Shown piece after piece: positions 5,594-60,485 of a DNA stretch of 64,000 nt. Positions within the stretch are counted from its first letter, which is position 1, and each line of letters opens with the position of its first letter. Source of the DNA: Salibacterium aidingense DSM 18341 (GTDB lineage Bacteria > Bacillota > Bacilli > Bacillales > Marinococcaceae). The position numbers and the translations under genes were made by a program. The stretch covers positions 1 to 64,000 of the forward strand of contig NZ_AUCI01000010.1 in assembly GCF_000429685.1 (NCBI RefSeq), written 5' to 3'. The notes beneath the pieces were generated by a model. It worked only from the letters and a program-made list of their open reading frames with translations, was not told the DNA's origin and did no database searches.

Positions 5594-6397
5594 GTGAAAT
5601 CGAGGGTGAAGGTATTGGAACTTTTAGGAAATGAATGGACGGTTGAACCTGCAGGAGGAACTACCGGTGAAGCGTATATTGCCTGGGCAGGAGAGCAAAA
5701 GCTGTTCTTAAAGCGCAACTCTTCCCCTTTTTTAGCAGTACTTTCTGCCGAAGGAATAGTTCCGAAATTACTCTGGACTAAACGTCTGGAAAACGGGGAT
5801 GTTATTACAGCGCAGCGGTGGGTGCAAGGCCGGGAGCTGCGCTCATCGGATATGAACCGCCCGGATGTTGCCGGCCTGCTTAGTAAAATACATGCTTCAA
5901 GCGAATTGCTTGATATGTTTAAACGAATAGGAAATGAACCGCTGACCCCGTCTATCATTATCGAAAATCTGAGAAGACAGCTGGTGGAAGCAGGAGCCTC
6001 CTATTCGCTGTTTCAGGAGGCGATCCATTATTTATTGGCAGAGTATCCTGAAATGAGCTCTACCCACATGGTTGTCTGTCATTGTGATATTAATCATAAT
6101 AACTGGATGATTAATTCGGACAATGAACTTTATTTAATTGATTGGGATGGGGCGACAGTGGCCGATCCCGCGTTTGATCTGGGACTTTTATTATATGAAT
6201 ACATACCCGCTGAAGAATGGGAGTTATGGTTACGCCATTACGGGCTTCCTCTTACCAGTAATTTAAAGAAACGAATGCACTGGTACGTTATTTCGCATGC
6301 ATTGGATCATGCCCTTTATTATAAACGAAAGGAAAAGAAATACGAGGCCGCCTTATGGACCGATTACCTGCGCCAGTTATTATACGGCCGGATCTAG
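5594..6397 (+). CDS. ytmP: Choline/aminoglycoside kinase-like phosphotransferase YtmP
   Basis: A protein of about 260-267 residues with the kinase-like fold of choline and aminoglycoside phosphotransferases. The catalytic loop HCDINHNNW and the metal-binding segment LIDWDGATVADPAFDLG are intact, so it should bind ATP and phosphorylate a small molecule; the substrate is unknown. The start is uncertain: GTG 5594, GTG 5606 or TTG 5615 are in frame, the last with GAGGG at 5602-5606 at good spacing. It lies upstream of trmB, as in B. subtilis, and is followed by a terminator at 6419-6440. Confidence 0.83.
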   Translation: MKSRVKVLELLGNEWTVEPAGGTTGEAYIAWAGEQKLFLKRNSSPFLAVLSAEGIVPKLLWTKRLENGDVITAQRWVQGRELRSSDMNRPDVAGLLSKIHASSELLDMFKRIGNEPLTPSIIIENLRRQLVEAGASYSLFQEAIHYLLAEYPEMSSTHMVVCHCDINHNNWMINSDNELYLIDWDGATVADPAFDLGLLLYEYIPAEEWELWLRHYGLPLTSNLKKRMHWYVISHALDHALYYKRKEKKYEAALWTDYLRQLLYGRI

Positions 6398-6416: not shown

Positions 6417-6441
6417 GGCCCGGCGTCAGCCGGGTCTTATT
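6417..6441 (+). terminator. Terminator after ytmP
   Basis: The six-base GC stem CCCGGC/GCCGGG (6419-6424 with 6429-6434) encloses a GTCA loop and is followed by TCTTATTT. It lies 20 bases after the ytmP stop codon and separates ytmP from trmB. Confidence 0.6.
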
Positions 6442-6469
6442 TCAGTATATAGGAAAGCATAAATCTTGG

Positions 6470-6740
6470 GCGTTTTCGAGATCCAGCGCCCAGCCGCTCG
6501 GAGGCCCGCACGAGGGCCAGCAGGATGCAGGTCAGTTCGGTGCTGCCTCAGGACGAGGCGGTTTTAACCGACCCTCCTTTTACCTATACCTATGACGTTG
6601 TCACAGGACGTGACGCATGAAGTTGCCTCCATAAGAATCTTCTACGAAGACCACGAACGTCCTGTGGGAAACGGCGGTACTAGCACCCCTGTGCGTCGCA
6701 GAACCTGTCGCGGCTTCTGAGGGCGCTTGCGCTTTTCTTA
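6470..6740 (+). repeat. Structured intergenic repeat with AGGA-loop hairpins, copy R1
   Basis: The 363-base gap between ytmP and trmB is filled by a structured repeat. Its edges form a partial inverted repeat: AGCGCCC near 6485-6491 and GGGCGCT near 6720-6726, followed by TGCGCTTTTCTTA. Inside are hairpin I (6517-6531, CCaGC/GCaGG, loop AGGAT), GTCAG, an outer stem TCGGT (6537-6541) with ACCGA (6567-6571), and hairpin III (6545-6559, GCCTC/GAGGC, loop AGGAC) with the linker GGTTTTA. A further hairpin, GTCAC-AGGAC-GTGAC, lies at 6600-6614. The same plan recurs at 59161-59319. No protein-coding potential was seen. Confidence 0.7.
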
Positions 6741-6760
6741 TACATACAGGAGGAATGGCA

Positions 6761-7426
6761 GTGAGACTTCGCCGCAAACCATGGGCTAAGGAATGGATAG
6801 AGAAACATCCGGAATTTGTTATATCGAGTCCTTCTCAAATGGCTTCCCGCTGGGAAGAGATGTTTGGGAATAACAATCCGATTTATGTAGAAGTAGGGAC
6901 AGGCAAAGGAAAATTTATTGATAATATGAGTCGTGCATATCCTGATATTAATTTTATTGGTATTGAGAAGTTTGAGAGTGTGCTGGTCACGGGATTACAG
7001 CGGCTTCTCCAGGACCGGCAGAGTAATGTTCGCTTTATCCATGGAGATGTCATTCAATTGCTTGATTACTTTCAGTACGGGGAGGTGGACCGTTTATTTA
7101 TTAATTTTACAGACCCCTGGCCAAAAACAAGACATGAAAAACGAAGACTGACCTACAAGACGTATTTGTCCCTTTATGAGAAAGTATTAAGCGAAGAAGC
7201 AGAGATTCATATGAAGACGGACAATCAAGGATTGTTTGAATACTCGATAGAAAGTATGTCGAGATATGGAATGATGTTGAAAAATATATCGCTGAACCTT
7301 CATCAAAGCAAGAGGGAAGAAAATATTATGACAGAATATGAAGAGAAATTTGCACAAAAGGGACAACCGATTTTTCGCCTGGAGGCTTTATTCCCATCTA
7401 ATGATACACACTCGGGAGATGGTTAA
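6761..7426 (+). CDS. trmB: tRNA (guanine-N7)-methyltransferase TrmB
   Basis: A 221-residue SAM-dependent methyltransferase that makes 7-methylguanosine at position 46 of tRNAs. The SAM-binding motif EVGTGKGKF (about 44-52) and the family signature NFTDPWPKTRHEKRRLT are present, and the C-terminal TEYEEKF element is conserved. I chose GTG 6761 (MRLRRKPWA): AGGAGG at 6748-6753 sits 7 bases upstream, whereas the ATG at 6755 is only one base from it. The gene stands directly after the R1 repeat and is followed by ytnP. Confidence 0.93.
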   Translation: MRLRRKPWAKEWIEKHPEFVISSPSQMASRWEEMFGNNNPIYVEVGTGKGKFIDNMSRAYPDINFIGIEKFESVLVTGLQRLLQDRQSNVRFIHGDVIQLLDYFQYGEVDRLFINFTDPWPKTRHEKRRLTYKTYLSLYEKVLSEEAEIHMKTDNQGLFEYSIESMSRYGMMLKNISLNLHQSKREENIMTEYEEKFAQKGQPIFRLEALFPSNDTHSGDG

Positions 7427-18810: not shown

Positions 18811-19428
18811 ATGAACATTTTTTATAACAGGAAGGGCATGGGGGACACACTGCTTGTTTCCCTGAAGGAAATTAGCAGGCAAAAGCGCAGTGTAGAAAGA
18901 AAAGGAGATGTGGCCCGTCTTTATCATACGGACAGTGGAGAGACAGCAGGATTCCATATTTTTCGTGCTTCCTCTTATGGAGAGGTGGGACAGACAGGGA
19001 TGGCTGCTTTTACCAGCAGCATAAGAAATCTAATTACTACCGCGCTGAAGCAAAACGGGTGGAACATAGAGGTGGAGTTCCCTGCATCCCCCTCCTTTGT
19101 AGTAGGGTTTGTGAAAGAACGTAAAAACCATCCGGATGCTGATAAACTAAGTGTCTGCCAGGTCGATACTGGTGAAGAAACCCTGCAGATTGTCTGCGGA
19201 GCTGCAAACGTAGACAAGGGCCAAAAAGTTGTAGTGGCAAAACCCGGAGCTTTTATGCCCTCTGGAATGAAAATAAAAAAGTCTAAATTACGAGGAGTTT
19301 CTTCCAACGGAATGATATGTTCTGCGAAGGAGCTGGTGTTAGACGAAGCTCCAAAGGAGAAAGGAATACTCATACTGGATGATTCCTATGTCACCGGGCA
19401 GGATTTTTTGGCACAGTTCCACCAATAA
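18811..19428 (+). CDS. ytpR: tRNA-binding domain protein YtpR
   Basis: A 205-residue protein. Residues 1-90 form the YtpR-specific N-terminal domain ([16 protein letters not shown] start), and about 95-200 form an EMAP/Phe-tRNA synthetase beta-type OB-fold tRNA-binding domain with [23 protein letters not shown] and [11 protein letters not shown]. Such domains bind structured RNA; the physiological ligand of YtpR is unknown. I chose ATG 18811 because AAGGAG lies about nine bases upstream, rather than the ATG at 18793. A terminator follows at 19456-19488. Confidence 0.88.
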
Positions 19429-41412: not shown

Positions 41413-41693
41413 TTGACAGAGTGAAAACAGGTATGGTAAAAGATATATAGTCTCTAATATTATAAGGAAGCATCGAAAGCTTGAAGTAACTTGCATTCTC
41501 CCTGTCTTCAGAGAACCGGTGGCTGCTGGAAACCGGTACAAAGAATGAAGCGAACTACGTGCTGGAGCTTTTTCTGCATTAAACAGCGGAAACGGAATTC
41601 CCGTTATAGAAACCGAGTGGAAAGTGTGTACTTTCAACAAGGGTGGTACCGCGATGAATCATCGTCCCTTCCAGTAAATGGAAGGGATTTTTT
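41413..41693 (+). promoter_or_regulatory. Tyrosine T-box riboswitch and promoter of tyrS
   Basis: The T-box sequence AAGGGTGGTACCGCG (41639-41653) is unmistakable. Upstream, the stem I region carries a UAC tyrosine specifier in GCGAACTACGTG (41556-41558). The terminator TCCCTTCC/GGAAGGGA (41665-41687) ends in TTTTTT. A promoter with TTGACA (41413-41418) and TAAAAG (41437-41442) precedes the leader. Uncharged tRNA-Tyr should favour the antiterminator and raise tyrS expression. Confidence 0.93.
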
Positions 41694-58510: not shown

Positions 58511-58539
58511 TTGATAAATTTTCTCAAAAGGCGTACGAT
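58511..58539 (+). promoter_or_regulatory. tpx promoter
   Basis: TTGATA (58511-58516), 17-base spacer and TACGAT (58534-58539) lie 38 bases upstream of the tpx start. Confidence 0.65.
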
Positions 58540-58576
58540 AGAGTTGTACATAACGTTTAAAGGAGGAGAAGCTATT

Positions 58577-59077
58577 ATGGCGGAAGTAACGTTTAAAGGA
58601 ACTCCCATGACCTTGAGAGGCAGTGAAGTAAAACTGGGAGAAAAAGCGCCGGACTTTACGGTGCTTGCTAACGATTTATCGGAAGTAACGCTGGAAGATA
58701 CGAAAGGAAAGGTTCGTTTAATCAGTGTCGTTCCCTCTGTTGATACCGGGGTGTGTGATCAGCAGACCCGGCGTTTTAACGAAGAAGCAGCCGTACTGGA
58801 TGGCGTGGAAGTCCTGACGATCAGCTGTGATCTCCCGTTTGCACAGAAAAGATGGTGTGCCGCTGCCGGGGTCGACAACCTCCAGATGCTCTCGGACCAC
58901 CGTGACCTTTCTTTCGGAGAGAATTACGGAGTAGCGATAGAGGAGCTGCGATTGCTCGCACGTTCCATTTTTGTGATCAACAGTGATGGAGAGGTCACTT
59001 ACACGGAATATGTTCCCGAAGCAACCAATCATCCTGATTACGATGCAGCTATTGAAGCGGCAAAAGCTGCGGAATAA
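58577..59077 (+). CDS. tpx: Thiol peroxidase Tpx
   Basis: A 166-residue atypical two-cysteine peroxiredoxin that reduces hydrogen and alkyl peroxides with thioredoxin. The peroxidatic C60 is in [14 protein letters not shown], and the resolving C94 in KRWCAAAG, matching positions 61 and 95 of E. coli Tpx. An additional Cys, C84, lies in ISCDLPFAQ, also usual. I chose ATG 58577 behind AGGAGGAG; upstream open codons overlap the promoter. It has its own promoter and terminator. Confidence 0.96.
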
Positions 59078-59088
59078 AAAGTACAGGA

Positions 59089-59118
59089 GGGGGCTGTATC
59101 AAAAGGTACAGCCCCCTT
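59089..59118 (+). terminator. Terminator of tpx
   Basis: The ten-base perfect stem GGGGGCTGTA/TACAGCCCCC (59089-59098 with 59106-59115) is followed by TTT. Its CTGTATCAAAAGG loop side resembles terminators at 22227, 25692 and 51393. Confidence 0.8.
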
Positions 59119-59400
59119 TCCTGTGATAACCGAGGCAGAAGTGGAAGGCGGCGGCTCCGGGCCAACAGGATGTTGGTCATGCAGGCGTTGCCACATGATG
59201 TGGCGGTTTTAGCCTGTTTCCTTTTCAAGCAGCAGCCGAAGATCCCATCAAACGGTGTTTGGGCCCGCAGGAAGCGGGTCAGATCGGCGTTGGCACAGGA
59301 CGTGCCGAACTTAGCTGATCTTCCTCCATTGATGTAGCTGAGGCGCTGCCCGCGGCAAGCGTCCGCCTGCAGCGGAGGCCTCAGCATGTAACGCACATTT
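59119..59400 (+). repeat. Structured repeat with AGGA-loop hairpins, copies R3a and R3b in tandem
   Basis: Unit R3a: hairpin I 59161-59175 (CCAAC/GTTGG, loop AGGAT), outer stem CAGGC (59181-59185) with GCCTG (59211-59215), enclosing hairpin III 59189-59203 (GCCAC/GTGGC, loop ATGAT). Unit R3b: hairpin I 59263-59277 (CCCGC/GCGGG, loop AGGAA), outer stem GATCGGC (59281-59287) with GCTGATC (59313-59319), enclosing hairpin III 59291-59305 (GGCAC/GTGCC, loop AGGAC). The stems differ in sequence but keep pairing. It fills the gap between tpx and ytxK; no coding frame is supported. Confidence 0.75.
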
Positions 59401-59492
59401 GGTTCAGCTTCTTTCCATTGACGGAATGTTTTTTCCGTTTGAGAATTTCTGCTATACTTTCGAAAGAACAGAACGAGAAAGGGCGATGTGTC

Positions 59493-60485
59493 GTGGAACC
59501 AGTTACAGAAGTGGAAAAACTGCACACGTTAATCGATGATATGGCATCTTCTATTCAGCAGCATACGGATGTAACCTATCTCGAAGCGTTGGCAGAAGCG
59601 GGAGAAAATGTGTTTCAGCATCGAATTGTTCAAACACTTCCCGACGAAGAGAACAAACGACTGGCAAAGAAGCTGGATGAAGAACTTCCGGAGGAAATGA
59701 AAAAAGAAGAGATCCGCAAGGCCTTTCAGCTTGCTGTTATTAAAGGGATGAAAGAAGCGGTCCAGCCGCATCATGCCATGACGCCGGATGCTGTAGCTAT
59801 GTTTATGGGATATCTTGTGGAGAAACTAACATCAAAAAGAGAATCGCTTGCGCTGCTCGATCCAGCTGCAGGAACAGCTAACTTATTAAGTGCTGTGTTA
59901 AACCAGATGTCAAAAGAAACAGCAGCGTACGGGGCGGAAGTGGATGAAACCCTTCTTAAAATCGCCTATGTATTGTCTAACCTGCAGGAGCACGATGTAG
60001 AGCTGTTTCATCAGGACAGCATAGAACAGCTTGCTTCCCCGGAAGTGGATGTCATTGTTTCTGATCTTCCTGTGGGGTATTATCCAAAAGAAGAGGTGGC
60101 AGAGGGGTTTCACCTGAAGTCCAAAGAAGGCCGTTCCTATGTCCACCACCTTTTGATAGAAAAATGCATGGCAAACGTAAAACCAGGCGGCTTTTTCATC
60201 CTGCTTATTCCTAACTTTATGTTTGAAAGCGAAGAAGCACCGGCCCTTCACACCTATATTAAAGAGGAAGCGGTCATTCTCGGATTGCTTCAGCTGCCGT
60301 CCTCCATGTTTAAAACAGAACAGGCAGGCAAGAGCATCTGGCTCCTTCAGAAGAAAGGACCGGAAGTGGTCCAGCCCGGCCAGGCTCTCCTTGCCGAACT
60401 TCCATCGTTTAACAATCAGGAAGCCCTGCTTGATATGATGAAACAAATGGATAAATGGTTTAAAGAAGAAGGATTCAGCAGCTGA
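59493..60485 (+). CDS. ytxK: Class I SAM-dependent methyltransferase YtxK
   Basis: A 330-residue protein resembling adenine-N6 DNA methyltransferases of restriction systems. An alpha-helical N-terminus (about 1-90) precedes the methyltransferase domain with the SAM loop LLDPAAGTANLLSAV and the catalytic-type motif VSDLPVGYYP, which differs from the usual NPPY/F, so DNA methylation is doubtful. The length matches B. subtilis YtxK (329), and it precedes ackA as there. I chose GTG 59493 behind AAAGGG; no in-frame ATG is near. No restriction or specificity subunit is adjacent. Confidence 0.87.
   Translation: MEPVTEVEKLHTLIDDMASSIQQHTDVTYLEALAEAGENVFQHRIVQTLPDEENKRLAKKLDEELPEEMKKEEIRKAFQLAVIKGMKEAVQPHHAMTPDAVAMFMGYLVEKLTSKRESLALLDPAAGTANLLSAVLNQMSKETAAYGAEVDETLLKIAYVLSNLQEHDVELFHQDSIEQLASPEVDVIVSDLPVGYYPKEEVAEGFHLKSKEGRSYVHHLLIEKCMANVKPGGFFILLIPNFMFESEEAPALHTYIKEEAVILGLLQLPSSMFKTEQAGKSIWLLQKKGPEVVQPGQALLAELPSFNNQEALLDMMKQMDKWFKEEGFSS

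Follow-up and report, generated by a model that had tools for sequence, protein, structure and literature searches.

The window analysed here (the whole stretch of DNA, 64,000 nucleotides) carries a short structured repeat at two places. A doublet lies between a thiol-peroxidase-like and a YtxK-like gene, and a single copy, near 6.5 kb, lies between an APH-type kinase and a TrmB-like gene. The cores of the repeat are housed in recurring shells of types A, B and C; the doublet is of type C and the 6.5-kb copy of type B. The features at the two places are as follows.

5594..6397, + strand: APH/choline kinase-like gene preceding the B element
6417..6436, + strand: intrinsic terminator GGCCCGGCGTCAGCCGGGTC followed by TTATTT, shortly 5' of the B element
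6451..6741, - strand: B-shell element (copy L025), approximate ends; tail at about 6451-6480, end TATAAGAAAAGCGCAAGCGCC (minus strand) near 6721-6741
6517..6583, - strand: RF01690 core (R1) within the B-shell element; cmscan 63.7 bits, E 2.3e-9
6755..7426, + strand: Methyltransf_4 (TrmB-like) gene following the B element
58511..59077, + strand: Redoxin/AhpC-TSA protein gene (thiol peroxidase-like), upstream of the doublet
59088..59117, + strand: terminator-like hairpin directly ahead of the C element, scored on the minus strand only; T-tract on the + strand short
59134..59153, + strand: first block of the type C shell, GGCAGAAGTGGAAGGCGGCG, common to type C copies in the window genome and its congeners (G000-G003)
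59162..59227, - strand: RF01690 core 2 (R3a); cmscan 67.3 bits, E 3.4e-10
59227..59245, + strand: middle block of the type C shell, AAGCAGCAGCCGAAGATCC, a common type C block separating the two core slots
59264..59330, - strand: RF01690 core 1 (R3b), AGGA-loop strand +; cmscan 74 bits, E 9e-12
59337..59356, + strand: last block of the type C shell, GCTGAGGCGCTGCCCGCGGC, a common type C block
59418..60485, + strand: downstream YtxK-like ORF with an N6 methylase domain; true start probably near 59490

All three units were identified by cmscan (Rfam 15) as full-length, minus-strand matches to RF01690 (Bacillaceae-1, presumed sRNA), each above the gathering score of 35 bits. The original prediction had placed two tandem units at 59161-59319 and a third, of shared plan, at 6517. 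Inspection of the sequence finds the two where they were placed, and the third is the full-length match of 63.7 bits. The predicted edges were close, with Rfam setting them slightly outside (59162-59227, 59264-59330 and 6517-6583). The prediction knew of no named family and had set an Rfam match as its refuting outcome; the family exists, and it is RF01690. Relative to the Rfam consensus, the AGGA-loop plan is reverse-complemented, so that TCCT loops there correspond to AGGA loops here. On the + strand, the first unit of the doublet reads CCAAC-AGGAT-GTTGG (59162-59176), GTCA, and CAGGC..GCCTG enclosing GCCAC-ATGAT-GTGGC, so that this core (core 2) has ATGA instead of AGGA in one loop. The second reads CCCGC-AGGAA-GCGGG, GTCA, and GATCGGC..GCTGATC enclosing GGCAC-AGGAC-GTGCC. 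The unit at 6517 follows the plan of the doublet with one A.A mismatch in hairpin I. Elsewhere in the window, a T-box leader was found at 41464-41672 (123 bits).

The stems of RF01690 change while their pairing is kept. In an alignment of 44 cores (two copies preceding 5S rRNA included), which consists mostly of high-scoring covariance model matches and is biased toward perfect pairing, 97.2% of 745 cells pair and 14 of the 17 pairs show two-sided changes. There are 171 compensatory cells compared with 51.1 in shuffles, the covariation score is 0.598 compared with 0.167, and one-sided changes, such as G-C to G-U, occur in 0 cells. Covariation with conserved pairing, as originally claimed, is very strong. 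Folding of single sequences is unremarkable on both strands (z -0.1 to -2.0), and the support for the structure is therefore comparative. A larger set of 89 core clusters, built from 248 nhmmer alignments of nearly full length, 167 of them distinct, contains 1365 Watson-Crick, 15 G.U, 36 A.C and 29 other cells on the Rfam strand, G.U amounting to about 1%. Seven tRNAs taken from these loci contain 9 G.U in 154, with A.C absent; this comparison is small and biased, and ARAGORN itself permits G.U.

This scarcity of G.U bears on the reading of RF01690 as a trans-acting sRNA in the Rfam orientation, the RUCCU loops of which would pair with Shine-Dalgarno sequences. Rfam classifies the family as an sRNA, the UCCU loops are constant, and five copies preceding 5S rRNA have the Rfam strand in the rRNA sense. 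However, G.U is not enriched on the Rfam strand as it is in the tRNAs, and the scans list no minus-strand promoter-like site reading into the cores of the window. The repeat also reaches 112 matches per genome and follows no orientation rule relative to genes. We regard an sRNA of this kind as highly improbable. One weak promoter-like site (9 of 12) lies on the + strand ahead of the 6.5-kb copy, upstream of the terminator.

A different RNA function would reside on the opposite strand, where a reverse-complement RNA with paired CAGGAYG hairpin loops, like CsrB, would sequester CsrA. An excerpt of PMC4333381 raises this hypothesis, pointing to a pair of CsrA-binding motifs on the reverse complement and to the uncertainty of the discoverers about the strand. 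Like CsrB/RsmZ-type sponges as they appear in that excerpt (PMC4333381), the AGGA strand of each core presents two hairpin loops with GGA. Almost all of the 89 clusters have C[AGGAY]G as loop 1 of this strand, and the excess of A.C over G.U lends weak support to the AGGA strand. The loops of this strand presumably match the CsrB repeat. In addition, 235 of the order's 249 genomes carry csrA, as do 23 of the 24 genomes of the family that have cores. Against a sponge, cores occur in 3 of the 14 csrA-negative genomes (2, 8 and 6 matches), and CsrA may therefore be dispensable for keeping them; the corresponding figure in csrA-positive genomes is 117/235 (Fisher p 0.053). One GGA position of loop 2 is altered in 25 of the 89 clusters. 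The A.C excess disappears without the two outermost P1 pairs, which hold 18 of the 36 A.C cells and leave 18 to 13. Unlike the known sponges, RF01690 is dispersed in many copies, and its direction relative to genes is inconstant. A sponge would also leave the empty sites, nesting, replication-linked orientation and spread described below unexplained. CsrA may bind the cores, but we consider it unlikely that sequestering CsrA accounts for the family.

RF01690 is abundant in the window genome (G000), with 62 matches at E <=0.001, 57 of them over the gathering score. The congeners G001, G002 and G003 have 28, 25 and 23 matches. Among 29 genomes of the family, 24 are positive, with 0-112 matches per genome, and five relatives hold 60-112 each. 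In the order, RF01690 was found in 120 of 249 genomes (19 candidates scored per genome). B. subtilis, used as control genome, has RF01690 cores as well, and an excerpt of PMC8208703 reports 8 structures in this species. Gene direction was tallied over 264 unique contexts (nhmmer score at least 35), from which 48 too close to a locus end were dropped. The copies were 62 anti, 49 co, 38 convergent, 24 divergent, 6 edge and 37 inside ORFs, the host ORFs being mostly short. Direction relative to genes is without bias overall (62 to 49), and convergent sites are enriched over divergent ones (38 to 24, compared with 61 to 77 in the background).

Five cores immediately precede 5S rRNA, four in G000 (L037, L042, L043 and L045) and one in G003 (L084). 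Their Rfam strand is in the rRNA sense, and 23S rRNA is visible upstream at L037 and L043. Between the two Salibacterium genomes, the stems of these cores differ yet pair. Gonzalez-Tortuero reportedly described, in 2022, an rRNA-linked class of this structure, the reverse complement of which is said to be expressed in B. subtilis. The constant loop bases and the five 5S-preceding copies could reflect an RNA role, and an RNA function of some copies is possible. Both the 5S-preceding copies and the enrichment at convergent sites would also suit old domesticated spacer hairpins (rRNA spacers or 3' UTR stabilisers) that are under selection and copied mainly through recombination. Such an origin is very unlikely in the face of recent spread to non-homologous places, seen as empty sites with 90-96% identical flanks and as one identical core at 20 unrelated sites.

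Shell A reads cgctttccgcgggcacggctcg .., shell B reads aagaaaagcgcaagcgcc .. gg-ct-ggcgctg-agct, and shell C reads GGCAGAAGCGGAAGGCGGCG .. AAGCAGCAGCCGAAGATCC .. GCTGAGGCGCTGCCCGCGGC. Doublets are about 100 nt apart, and mosaics of shells and cores are present. Within shell C, the first slot holds, by nhmmer, a minus-oriented core at 9 loci of G000 and a plus-oriented core at 7 loci of G001 and 1 locus of G003. The plus-type core was also seen by eye at several loci lacking an nhmmer call there, including L028 of G000, so that the division of the two kinds of first-slot core between species is not a strict one. Both core slots of the C shell at L056 are empty, and at L066 the second one is. 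Cores are also nested. Five scanned B elements of 450-540 bp in genome G007 contain 3, 3, 3, 2 and 2 matches to RF01690, which lie in both orientations. Three of the five elements include a match of 124 nt instead of the usual 67, the core being split by another module. At L044 of the window genome (G000:C6:54144-54258), a core match of 115 nt instead of 67 has additional bases within the first hairpin loop. Inside the B element of the window, at 6590-6715, more divergent core-like hairpins can be seen by eye (CACAGGACGTG, CGTCCTG), which are absent from the matches listed at Rfam's gathering score.

Elements with an identical core occupy unrelated sites in G007. The same 67-mer core was present at all 20 fetched sites (of 26 listed at 76.3 bits), and column identity across these 20 loci is 0.97-0.98 over the 20 bases before the core, 0.54 over the next ten and 0.37-0.48 beyond, which defines a sharp left edge. 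Five elements were compared with the sister genome G005, where three are cleanly absent and a fourth nearly so. The L150 element (461 bp) lies between the stop codon of an aspartokinase-like gene (named by reading of the sequence) and its terminator; in G005 the element is absent and the flanks abut, with 96% and 94% identity. Four others were tested in two 20-kb stretches with flanks 90-93% identical to G005. L154 (453 bp) and L147 (473 bp, about 20 of them outside the recognised tail) are absent and their flanks meet, with target overlaps of 9 and 12 bases, respectively. At L155 the empty site is nearly clean, with 16 bp remaining in G005, and at L148 other sequence is present. At the L150 site, genome G006 also lacks the L150 element and carries other sequence of about 200 bp instead; this makes insertion in G007 the simpler interpretation. 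A plasmid search with a 541-bp L150 piece (partial element and flank) gave no match. The element had been taken for a functional or actively spreading structure of RNA or DNA; the 62 matches in its own genome, the 60-112 in five relatives and the empty sites of G005 bear out the spread.

B elements favour terminators. In G007 and in the window genome, the AGGA strand of the B shell begins 3' of the terminator hairpin and T-tract of its target. By a strict criterion (dG -7 or lower plus a T-rich tail), 25 of 48 distinct AGGA-strand 5' flanks in G007 have a terminator; the opposite end has one in 1 of 59 cases on either strand, and random 53-mers in 6 of 200. The remaining 23 of the 48 fail this criterion. 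In G000, 7 of 9 B ends have a terminator, among them the window copy, against 0 of 10, and in other genomes the count is 15 of 46 against 4 and 7 of 51. None of 13 type A elements had a terminator ahead. For type C, a terminator was scored at 21 of 32 loosely matched starts, mostly as a near-identical repeated hairpin sequence, and this terminator-like hairpin, which recurs at many C copies, may be part of the repeat. Owing to its short T-tract, the C copy of the window does not pass the strict test. The 5' flanks of the elements have T-rich ends and share no single fixed tetranucleotide.

Orientation relative to replication is a second regularity. The B left end has 235 matches in G007 (control pattern 0) and the right tail 196. 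Among the matches listed, on contigs with at least four, left ends share one strand per contig in 76 of 78 cases. The Rfam strand is opposite the G-rich strand in 80 of 85 G007 copies by contig-level skew, a tally over 42 stretches of 20 kb partly selected around known copies, and in 76 of 84 by local skew. This resampling supersedes an earlier count of 98/105 that relied mostly on one skew window per contig. The rule holds across contexts (convergent 28/29, divergent 15/15, lagging genes 10/13, leading genes 24/25, edge 3/3), and it exceeds the 70% of coding bases that are leading (p 6e-8, copies taken as independent). Leaving out contig C30, along which the skew sign flips, gives 70/74, and collapsing neighbours within 1 kb gives 60/64 (p 4e-6). 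In G005, 15 of the 16 listed copies follow the rule, with skew domains drawn from 20 samples; one additional copy, in the 917-937 kb stretch, is against it. In G000 the orientation is 20 opposite to 15 same for all types, which is not significant, and 4 to 3 for B. Replication-linked orientation is thus shown for the recently expanded G005/G007 lineage only. In these two genomes the AGGA strand is the G-rich, leading-sense strand, which is the template of lagging-strand synthesis, irrespective of the direction of flanking genes.

Such a rule counts against an ordinary MITE moved by a DDE transposase through double-stranded DNA intermediates. The short repeat, its paired ends, high copy number and empty sites would suit a MITE, and a TA or TAA target-site duplication is possible at two sites. 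But 80 of 85 G007 copies have one orientation relative to replication and one end lies behind terminators; moreover, a full terminal inverted repeat was not seen in the located ends, which are only loosely inverted. We consider a DDE-moved MITE quite unlikely.

The units of the window are probably palindromic RF01690 cores of miniature, non-autonomous mobile elements. Several observations favour a mobile element acting at the DNA level: G.U pairs are scarce, core orientation is exchanged within one shell, cores are nested, empty sites occur and, in one lineage, orientation is linked to replication. One may go a step further, at a rough probability of 0.45, and propose that the main role of RF01690 is that of a recognition core in a so far undescribed, gene-less class of mobile elements of Bacillaceae, and not that of an RNA gene. 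Folded single strands of these elements would enter the lagging-strand template right behind terminators, insert into one another, and swap core orientation within one shell; the enzyme that moves them in trans would not be a RAYT. Already under the first reading, replication would expose the lagging-strand template, in which the terminator hairpin could fold, and a trans-acting enzyme would then join the folded element 3' of the T-tract. Because a folded element would join a folded terminator in the exposed template, the hairpins would serve mainly as recognition structures in single-stranded DNA. The main candidates for the mobiliser would be a Y1/HUH transposase like that of IS608, or a reverse transcriptase that chooses its targets in the manner of group IIC introns.

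Neither a transposase nor a reverse transcriptase was found linked to the element. Clustering of 382 ORFs from 104 loci gave, among the listed clusters of three or more, one transposase-resembling family (L057 and L061 of G001, beside type C doublets), which we take, by resemblance, to be an IS1380-type transposase. A single Y1_Tnp gene was found in G000, of RAYT size (166 aa; G000:C1:378426-378761, L109). It was rejected as the partner in this genome, since a different repeat, gtgcctgtcaccacccg..ttgtcgaa, lies on either side of it and no RF01690 is nearby.

Several known systems share features with this proposal. REPIN/BIME elements, according to excerpts of PMC3116915 and PMC6006769, likewise have palindromic units, doublets, mosaic arrays, extragenic spread without a gene of their own and a likely single-strand substrate. 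They differ in that the RF01690 core consists of two hairpins with TCCT/AGGA loops, that the lone Y1 gene of G000 lies in other repeats, and that B. subtilis has cores and no Y1 match. Group IIC introns insert at intrinsic terminator motifs and use the replication fork (excerpt of PMC4424553), and the B shell is similarly inserted 3' of a terminator hairpin (25/48 against 1/59; G000 7/9). The elements of 450-540 bp are, in contrast, too small for a reverse transcriptase gene, and no group II ribozyme was detected by cmscan in the window or in L309, L310, L150 and L311 (44.6 kb, five elements), where only RF01690 was listed. IS608 and ISDra2 target the lagging-strand template (excerpt of PMC6006769). 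An orientation set by replication, as expected of an IS200/IS605-like element, is seen in G007 (80/85) and G005 (15/16 listed) and not in the window genome (20 to 15). The Rfam entry shares with our description the three full-length units of the window; it differs in treating RF01690 as an sRNA gene on the opposite strand, with a 67-nt core modelled without shells, nesting or mobility.

The Rfam family was already known; its reading as the core of a mobile element, the terminator targeting of the B shell and the lineage-bound orientation relative to replication are new. Titles and abstract beginnings of CC-licensed PMC papers gave no description of RF01690 as a mobile element or of its terminator targeting. 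If the proposal is correct, a catalogued "sRNA" of no assigned function would become the core of a mobile element, and strong covariation alone would not be proof of an RNA gene. Scarcity of G.U could then serve as a general sign by which, for "orphan" Rfam families, RNA genes are told apart from hairpins of mobile DNA. Should the replication and terminator rules hold, these elements would be a gene-less addition to the few users of single-stranded DNA hairpins, such as group IIC introns, IS200/IS605 and REPINs. Elements inserted just behind a terminator, or between it and the preceding stop codon, would alter the 3' untranslated regions of many genes simultaneously.

Some minor observations were made along the way. 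In the window genome, G000:C16:16674-20729 contains two csrA-like genes, one with an in-frame TAG, and a core lies between them at 19321-19388. In G007, a stretch of 1186 bp (L309:3316-4501), the flanks of which meet in G005, is possibly an insertion element. A different repeat, about 100 bp long, occupies L309:16236-16333 and has matches at no fewer than 30 places in G005.
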